Both the position numbers and the translations under genes were made by a program. From contig NC_089494.1 in assembly GCF_036850765.1 (NCBI RefSeq), forward strand, positions 233,076,779-233,140,778: DNA of 64,000 bases. Direction: 5' to 3'. The notes beneath the pieces were generated by a model. The model was not told the DNA's origin. It ran no database searches and saw only the letters and a list, made by a program, of their open reading frames with translations. The stretch comes from Saccopteryx bilineata. Its lineage: Eukaryota > Chordata > Mammalia > Chiroptera > Emballonuridae. The number at the start of each line of letters is the position of its first letter. Position 1 is the stretch's first letter. This document shows, piece after piece, positions 53,601 through 56,600 of the stretch.

Positions 53601-56600
53601 ATAGACCATTCATCTCTGGACCCCCACCCCCAAATATATGGGAATTTGTTTTAAAAAGCTTGTTCAAATGTGAACTGAAGGACAGAATAGAGTTAGAGAC
53701 AGGATCGAAGGGACCAGAGGGAAAGCAGACAGAGGGAAAGGGGATGAGAGGATGGGATCAGAGAAGGGAAAGAGATGGTGAAATTATATATACATAACAC
53801 AGTGTTATAGAGAGCAGGAAAGCAAATCCTGGAGGGAAGCGGGGAGGGCGTAGGGGGCAGGGCGTTGGGGGGAGTCTGGCAAGGGGGATGTTGAGAAAAC
53901 ACAAGGGTGGAGGGATGTATTCTGTGGGACACTTGAATGTATGTAAACACAATACATTAAAATCAATTAAAAGAAAAGGCTTGTTCAGCTCAATGTCATG
54001 CTAATCAGAAAACTTGTTGACTGCTGCTTGCTAAGACAATGAAGATACTTATATTGAAAAACAATTTTCTCACCTGAGCTGTGGTGGCACGGTGGATCAA
54101 GTGTCAACCTGGAATGCTGAGATCACCAGTTTGAAACCCAGTGCTTGCCTGGTCCAGGTACATATGGGATTTGATGCTTCTTGCCTCCGCCCCCCCCCCA
54201 TTCTCTCTCTGTAAAATAAATGAAGTTTTAAAATATAAAATTAAAAAATAAATCTATTTAAAACAACAACAACAACAACAATTTTCTTATCTGAGAATGA
54301 ACAAAATGGAGATTTCTCATTCTAAAATGATAATCCAGTCATGTGAGTAGGCATCATTTCCAATCACTGATAGTTATCTAGGTTATATTTTCCCAGTATA
54401 GTTCTCCAATTTTTAAACGGGAAATCTATTCAAATTATTAAAAGAAGGAAACAGTGGCCCTGGCCGGTTGGCTCAGTGGATAGAGCATCAGCCTGGTGTA
54501 TGGATGTCCTGGGTTCTATTCCCAGTCAGGGAACACAGGAGAAGCAACCATCTGTTTCTCTCTCTCTTCCCCTCTCGCAGCCAGTGGCTGATTGGTTCCA
54601 ACATTGGCCCCAGGCACTGAGGATGGCTCTGTTGATTTGAGCAACCCCATCAAGGGCCCATGCTGGAATCAACCAAGCTCTTTTTTTTTTTTTCTTTCTC
54701 TTGCTTTTGTGAGAAATGACTTGCTAAGATCATTGTTTTCCAGCTTTCATAGACAAATGATAAAGTAAAAAACAAACAAAAGCATGGTCAAGAAAGTATC
54801 ATGTTTGGCAAGAAACATGTTTGGACTCATTCAATTTCACTTAATTGAATACTTCAAAAGAGGAACACTAAGGTCAGCTATTGACTACTTTTAGTTAAAA
54901 ACTCAAAGACGGCCCTGGCCAGTTGGCTCAGTGGTAGAGCCTCGGCCTGGTGTGCAGAAATCCCCGGTTCGATTCCTGGCCAGGGCACACAGGAGAGCCA
55001 CCCATCTGCTTCTCCACCCCTCCCCCTTTCCTTCCTCTCTGTCTCTCTCTTCCCCTCCACAGCCAAGGCTCCACTGGAGCAAAGTTGGCCCGGGCACTGA
55101 GGATGGCTCTGTGGCCTCTGCCTCAGGCGCTAGAATGGTTCTGGTTGCAACAGAGTGGCGCCCCAGATGGGCAGAGCATCGCCCCCTGGTGGGCATGCCG
55201 GGTGGATCCCGGTCGGGCGCATGCGGGAGTCTGTCTGACTGCTTCCCGTTTCCAGCTTCAGAAAAAATACAAAAAACAAAACAAAACAAAACTCAAAGAT
55301 AATTTGATTGACATTAATTGTCTGTAAATGGCCAGGACAAAAGGTCTATTTCTTTATAGACAACAATCGGTTTCTGTATTTATTTTTTCCTATGAATTAA
55401 TTATATTATTAAGATTGTGATTTTCACTTGCTGTTTCAACACATGTATAAGGATTGTTATGTTTGGTGACTGCCCCTAAAAATCAATGAAAAAAAGCAGC
55501 ATTTGTACAGCGCAGAGCTCTACTCAGACAGTGCAGTTGTGAGACTGACATCTGCAGTATCCTGAGACACTGGGCATGTCGTTCAGTCTTCGTGAACCTC
55601 TATTTCTCTTTCTGTAAAATGGGACTCAGATGATAGAGTTTTGCCTTACTGAGTTTAATTATATGAGAAACTGTGAGAAAAAGTGTTCATAAAAGTGGAC
55701 ATAATCCATCATCCAGAAGTCTTTCCATGACCAGTTGTTTCACTATTTTTAAATAAACTTTAAGTTATTTCTATCACGCTTAAATACTCATAAGCCTTAG
55801 GATAACTCATTAAAGAAAAATGGCAGTTTCTCTCTTTGATTTGTCATGATATCCCTTTCCCAGATGTTTAAACACCAGTGTTTTCCTTCCTCCAGACCGC
55901 AAGCCAGTGAGCAGCCTCAGCATGCCTTTGTCCCACCGGAGATGCTCATGTCATCAGGTTACACTGGACAATTTTTTCAGCCAGCGTCCAACCCAGATTA
56001 TTATTCACAATCTCCTTACATTGACAGTTTTGATGAAGAGCCTCCCTTGCTAGAAGATAAGTTAAGGAAGTGCTACTAATGTGTGTACAGCTCGAGAATA
56101 ATAGCAACAATCAGCACTTAATGTGTGCTGTCAGCATGCTGCATCCAGGGTTTTTGTGCAGTTGTTCCACGTGTAAGCAAATCTGTCCAGTCAAGACATT
56201 TAGACCAGTGCAAGTCTGTTGCATGTTTGTGTGGGACGGAAGTAGGTATGCGCTATTGCTATGCTATCGTTGCAGTTATTAAATGCTTCTCCTGTTTCTT
56301 AAATTTGAACTTCCTTGGCAATGTCTAGAAAACAGTGAAGACATCTTTTCGAAAAGTGGTCATGTCAAAGTAACCACCCTTCCCACCCCAGTTAACAAAA
56401 CCACTTCATAACAGCCTATTTTATTTTCTGCTCTATTTGCCTGGACTCCAAGGCTGTAGTTTCTGAACTTGCTATTGTTTATTTGTTGTCATGGACACAA
56501 GCCTGGCTCATATGAGTTTTTTTCCTTCCTGACTCTTCTGAATAGCCTAATTGCAGCTCGGCATGGCTAAATGCGAAGGAATATGTTTCCAGTACATAGA

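Follow-up and report, generated by a model that had tools for sequence, protein, structure and literature searches.

YIPF7 gene structure and the borders of intron 2

The window analysed here, a stretch of 64,000 nucleotides (C5:233076779-233140778 in the 2.61 Gb Saccopteryx bilineata genome), carries the first part of YIPF7 on the forward strand. The gene has five coding exons, of which exons 4 and 5 lie beyond the window (Table 1). YIPF7 (Yip1B) is described as a five-pass protein of the ERGIC and Golgi and a paralogue of YIPF5 (PMC6682643, PMC9437294). Joined together, the exons comprise 768 nt, that is, 255 codons and a stop, with 0 internal stops. The four donors read, in order, GTAAGT, ATAAGT, GTAATG and GTAAGT, and exons 2 to 5 each have an AG acceptor. 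Exon 2 is directly followed by ATAAGTTAAG, and TTTTTTGCAG directly precedes the start of exon 3 at 62627; the reading frame fixes intron 2 as AT at its 5' end and AG at its 3' end. The initial annotation had placed the end of exon 2 at 56056, with an AT donor and an ordinary AG acceptor, and both the DNA and the five-exon frame agree with it. It had also called the visible exons otherwise intact and proposed that later exons be checked for decay; all five exons proved open, exons 4 and 5 included, and the other junctions are GT-AG.

Table 1. Features at the YIPF7 locus, in window coordinates (a slash marks the exon border)
Feature	Position	Strand	Remarks
YIPF7 coding exon 1	50511..50626	+	ATG at 50511, donor GTAAGT
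YIPF7 coding exon 2	55896..56056	+	161 nt
YIPF7 coding exon 3	62627..62772	+	donor GTAATG
YIPF7 exon 4	68246-68427, past the window	+	open, GT and AG borders
YIPF7 exon 5	70903-71065, past the window	+	open, AG acceptor
YIPF7 intron 2 AT donor	56057..56058	+	AAG/ATAAGT, first intron base A
YIPF7 intron 2	56057..62626	+	6570 nt, ends TTTTTTGCAG behind a pyrimidine tract
In-frame internal GT donor in exon 2	55958..55959	+	TCAG/GTTACA, removes 99 nt (33 residues)
Read-through tail D-K-L-R-K-C-Y-stop	56056..56079	+	stop TAA at 56077-56079; like tails in other mammals
AC as possible AT-AC intron end	62628..62629	+	exon then from 62630, in frame, LLEVGIN
Two adjoining open frames	43043-44261	+	188 and 190 codons

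Donors were scored with a matrix in which the penalty for A at +1 is arbitrary. On this scale AAG/ATAAGT reached 3.65 bits, against 12.6 with G at +1, and the remaining three YIPF7 donors scored 6.2 to 9.5 bits. The intron 2 donor is a very good site spoiled by one base, and few splice mutations are normally as damaging as G-to-A at donor +1. By the same matrix, seven GT sites in 55896-56700 outscored the AT donor, the best with 6.75 at 56246, and the internal GT of exon 2 scored about the same as the AT donor (3.25 vs 3.65). Outside +1, intron 2 fits the U2-type donor consensus, and it has the U2 features of G at +5 and a pyrimidine tract ahead of AG. A U12-type intron was considered and rejected: the donor ATAAGTTAA is not ATATCCTT-like, and no TCCTTAAC-like branch site was seen near the 3' end when the last 100 nt were inspected by eye against the consensus. 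A branch-like CTGAT motif is present at 62571 within the intron. Just 3' of the AT donor, at window positions 56071-56080, lies TGCTACTAAT, which is close to the yeast branch-site consensus.

Elsewhere in the window, the second of the two adjoining open frames matched the Pfam family Dimer_Tnp_hAT (E 5.7e-6), and no Pfam family was matched by the first. The paired frames look like a decayed hAT-type transposase.

The first base of intron 2 in the paralogue and in other mammals

YIPF5 and YIPF7 were found by a protein query of the S. bilineata genome, which gave 14 matches; the Pfam PF04893 profile gave 0 matches in this genome at E 0.001. YIPF5 has GAAG/GTCAGA at the same intron position and in the same phase. 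Because the paralogue has GT, GT is likely the older state, which fits the claim of the initial annotation that one G-to-A change from a GT donor accounts for the site. A retrocopy of YIPF7 would preserve the junction of an earlier splicing event; the protein query of this genome found none. The query revealed three intronless copies with adjoining exons (C5:64345434-64346061, C5:182783382-182784117 and C6:109610314-109610868), the DNA of which is 70-89% identical to YIPF5 exons vs 67-76% to YIPF7 exons. Judged by sequence, these are processed YIPF5 copies with frames broken at least partly.

The predicted read-through form, used as a query against 5.8 billion proteins, gave 29 matches, three of which were left out of the count (P0138, which is spliced, and P0148 and P0149, which cover exon 1 only). 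The residue after LLE decodes the first intron bases (D, G/AY; G, G/GN); bases of other species are read from proteins in this way, and T at +2 is indistinguishable from C. LLED, which places A at the first intron base, was found in 25 of the 26 read-through proteins and LLEG in one (P0146), and the codon after that was K in all 26 (+3, +4 = AA). Since annotated read-through isoforms turn up more readily at weak donors, a fairer count is given by nine contig ORFs that start inside intron 1 (P0139-P0147), which are unspliced genomic ORFs shaped by no splice model and not all from independent species. Eight of these nine read LLED, and the window's own frame into exon 2 from intron 1 reads as they do.

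The bats with D were Saccopteryx leptura, Rhynchonycteris naso, Myotis yumanensis, M. myotis, Rousettus aegyptiacus and Phyllostomus hastatus. D was further found in Muntiacus reevesi, Panthera uncia, Mustela nigripes, Marmota flaviventris, Perognathus longimembris, Daubentonia, Macaca nemestrina, Echinops (tenrec) and Dasypus (armadillo), and in a eukprot record with the prefix bmy, which we take to be bowhead whale. These taxa span the four placental superorders. These results suggest that the +1 A of YIPF7 intron 2 is common to many placental mammals. A single wombat model (P0064) reads LLEDKLKLGIN, a hint that a marsupial may share this base.

P0146 is the sole read-through protein with GT at the intron 2 donor, so the +1 A is not universal. 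Among the proteins compared, the best match to its exon part is human (93%, 54 residues), followed by macaque and rabbit (88%, 59 residues). The GT of P0146 could be a reversion.

Junctions were further surveyed in the best 120 of 2512 and the best 120 of 484 proteins, two overlapping sets, which were sorted by name into 84 mammalian and 73 other vertebrate proteins, with 2 set aside and some species counted repeatedly. Among these listed matches, LLEELG was present in 66 of the 84 mammalian and in all 73 other vertebrate proteins. A different junction was thus found in 18/84 vs 0/73 (Fisher p 5e-6, only a guide because the surveyed proteins are kin). The 18 departures comprised five LLED, one LLEVG, one LLELG, 10 GT detours inside exon 2 and one other. 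Among the listed proteins, models err here in mammals alone, which fits an AT donor of mammalian origin.

Probable use of the AT donor and alternative splicing outcomes

Joining 56056 to 62627 gives LLEELGIN. Joining 56056 to 62630, at the AC located 3 nt beyond the AG, gives LLEVGIN, in frame and one residue shorter. Use of the GT at 56061 gives LLEDKTWN and then a stop, in line with the early stop foreseen in the initial annotation, and with exon 2 skipping, exon 3 skipping or read-through the frame is in each case broken or truncated. The NCBI model of S. bilineata YIPF7 (P0061, isoform X1, 222 aa) takes the internal GT at 55958, with the junction MLMSS/ELGIN, and the Molossus model (P0079) is likewise spliced from the internal GT. 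Models with such detours were noted in Marmota, Sciurus, Catagonus, Piliocolobus, Monodon, Jaculus, Prolemur, Microcebus and Molossus. They may be wrong. The in-frame GT, the in-frame AC acceptor and the +1 A in other mammals had not been part of the initial annotation.

We consider it likely that YIPF7 intron 2 is an old U2-type AT-AG intron, fixed early in mammals, spliced from 56056 to 62627 and probably leaky. The G-to-A change at +1 would have been fixed in early mammals and then mostly kept. Since AAG/ATAAGT is otherwise near-ideal, pairing with U1, U5 and U6 probably offsets the wrong first base, and splicing into the strong acceptor at 62627 would restore the ancestral frame LLE/ELGIN. 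The first splicing step is probably inefficient, so that read-through and nearby GT donors would be used alongside.

Several species or genera carry both the A and the normal peptide among their models. In Marmota, P0127 carries the A and P0154 reads LLEELGIN; in Myotis, the A is found in P0123 and P0137 and the normal peptide in P0001 and P0018; in Phyllostomus, the A is found in P0131 and the normal peptide in P0009. For Ursus americanus, the UniRef model P0028 reads LLEDNFD and the NCBI models P0015 and P0155 read LLEELGIS. The human product P0159 reads LLEELGIH, and the macaque isoform P0129 reads LLED. On one contig of Moschus, models with LLEVGIN (P0023, isoform X2) and LLEELGIN (P0157, isoform X3) are both present, and the AC acceptor of P0023 suggests an AT donor in Moschus as well. 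We infer, as the simplest account, that the major spliceosome of S. bilineata splices intron 2 as AT-AG, with AT-AC a possible alternative outcome. Against AT-AG splicing, the plain LLEELG of the 66 listed mammalian proteins also fits a GT donor, and the S. bilineata and Molossus models take the internal GT.

It is unlikely that intron 2 is instead a U2-type AT-AC intron running from 56056 to 62630, with its first base A paired with its last base C and LLEVGIN as the product. Such a junction keeps the frame, Moschus isoform X2 has the corresponding peptide, and YIPF7 shares G at +5 with the U2-type AT-AC introns of sodium channels (PMC2831892). However, this form was found in only 1/84 listed mammalian proteins, which are cluster representatives and may hide others, and the human product and Moschus isoform X3 have the AG-type peptide. 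A gene finder that permits AT-AC but not AT-AG would presumably give the AC form regardless.

An AT donor that is dead, with YIPF7 made through other GT donors such as that at 55958 or as the 99-residue read-through form alone, is likewise improbable. It would account for the internal GT taken by the S. bilineata and Molossus models, for the detours in 10/84 listed mammalian models, for the higher scores of several GT sites and for the read-through isoforms annotated in many species. It is also consistent with P0135, a contig of 1406 bases in which exon 1 is joined to exon 2 and followed by read-through; this looks like a transcript with a retained intron. However, the detours vary by species, as expected of work-arounds by gene finders, the end of exon 2 is still conserved (DEEPPLLE), and LLEELGI appears in models from species or genera having A at +1 and in the human product.

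Editing of the +1 A to inosine before splicing, whereby the spliceosome would meet a GT-like donor, is very unlikely. Edited AT-AG introns are reported in human, with three that show editing, one of them U2-like (PMC4176328, Table 2). In YIPF7, however, the fold of 55896-56300 had a z of +0.64, with 75 of 100 shuffles equally or more stable, and of the 155 inverted repeats in 55800-62800 (arms at most 3000 nt apart), the 25 longest all leave the donor uncovered. Furthermore, ADARs disfavour G 5' of the target A, and the base 5' of the +1 A is G.

A recent loss, a polymorphism or a sequencing error in this individual or species is hardly credible: the +1 A, read from read-through proteins, is present in the congener S. 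leptura, in Rhynchonycteris, in tenrec and armadillo and in other placentals, which makes it neither recent nor private and an error very unlikely, exons 1-5 are intact, and nothing among the YIPF7 exons and related proteins was found to support any of the three. Thus, of the four options left by the initial annotation, the tolerated rare intron stands and these three fall, and its suggestion of recency is contradicted by the comparison of base 56057 across bats. Rather than a defect newly acquired by this bat, the YIPF7 AT donor is probably an old, tolerated splicing oddity.

The read-through form and comparison with known introns

The predicted read-through form is the YIPF7 N-terminus alone, about 99 residues long and ending in DKLRKCY. 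Across 25 proteins and the window, with P0146 left out, the intron-encoded tail had a mean pairwise identity of 0.87, compared with 0.80 in the final 52 residues of the exon part and 0.95 in DEEPPLLE; the tail figure is favoured, as the query contained the tail. Conservation of the tail may reflect a splice signal or a protein. We hold it rather doubtful that the weak AT donor is kept as useful, splitting YIPF7 transcripts between the complete membrane protein and a soluble N-terminal form that is itself conserved. Over-expression of the Yipf5 N-terminus is reported to disrupt the Golgi (PMC9437294), and by this likeness the short YIPF7 form could be a built-in inhibitor.

A change of a normally damaging type seems to have reached fixation early in mammalian history and to have persisted in many lineages, presumably for about 100 million years. 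Intron 2 offers a system for studying the handling of A at +1 and an AG end by the major spliceosome, with natural controls in the paralogue YIPF5 and the mammal-like contig P0146, which both have GT. The AT donor would also explain why a series of public YIPF7 models is doubtful.

Among the papers searched, none joins YIPF7 with "splice site" and "intron". The word "yipf" is absent from the main text of PMC4176328 and PMC11928937; their supplementary lists may hold the human YIPF7 intron. U2-like AT-AG introns exist in human (Parada et al. 2014, PMC4176328). One of them, in ACTR10, resembles that of YIPF7 in having an AG acceptor and an AT donor that goes back to GT. The ACTR10 AT is described there as confined to some primates, other mammals having GT, whereas the YIPF7 AT appears widely common to placentals. 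The GA-AG introns of FGFR genes, as cited in the same paper, also have a conserved non-canonical 5' splice site and are U2-like, but begin with GA instead of AT. SCN4A intron 21 shares with YIPF7 an AT donor and G at +5, the latter noted for the U2-type AT-AC introns of sodium channels in general, and is handled by the major spliceosome (PMC2831892). The sodium channel introns, which may be trapped as AT-AC because their first and last bases interact (same source), end in AC, whereas YIPF7 products mostly have the AG junction, with AC just a tandem option. The closest counterpart within the same genome is the YIPF5 intron, which agrees with that of YIPF7 in position, phase and exon ends (LLE/ELGINF) and has a canonical GT donor instead.
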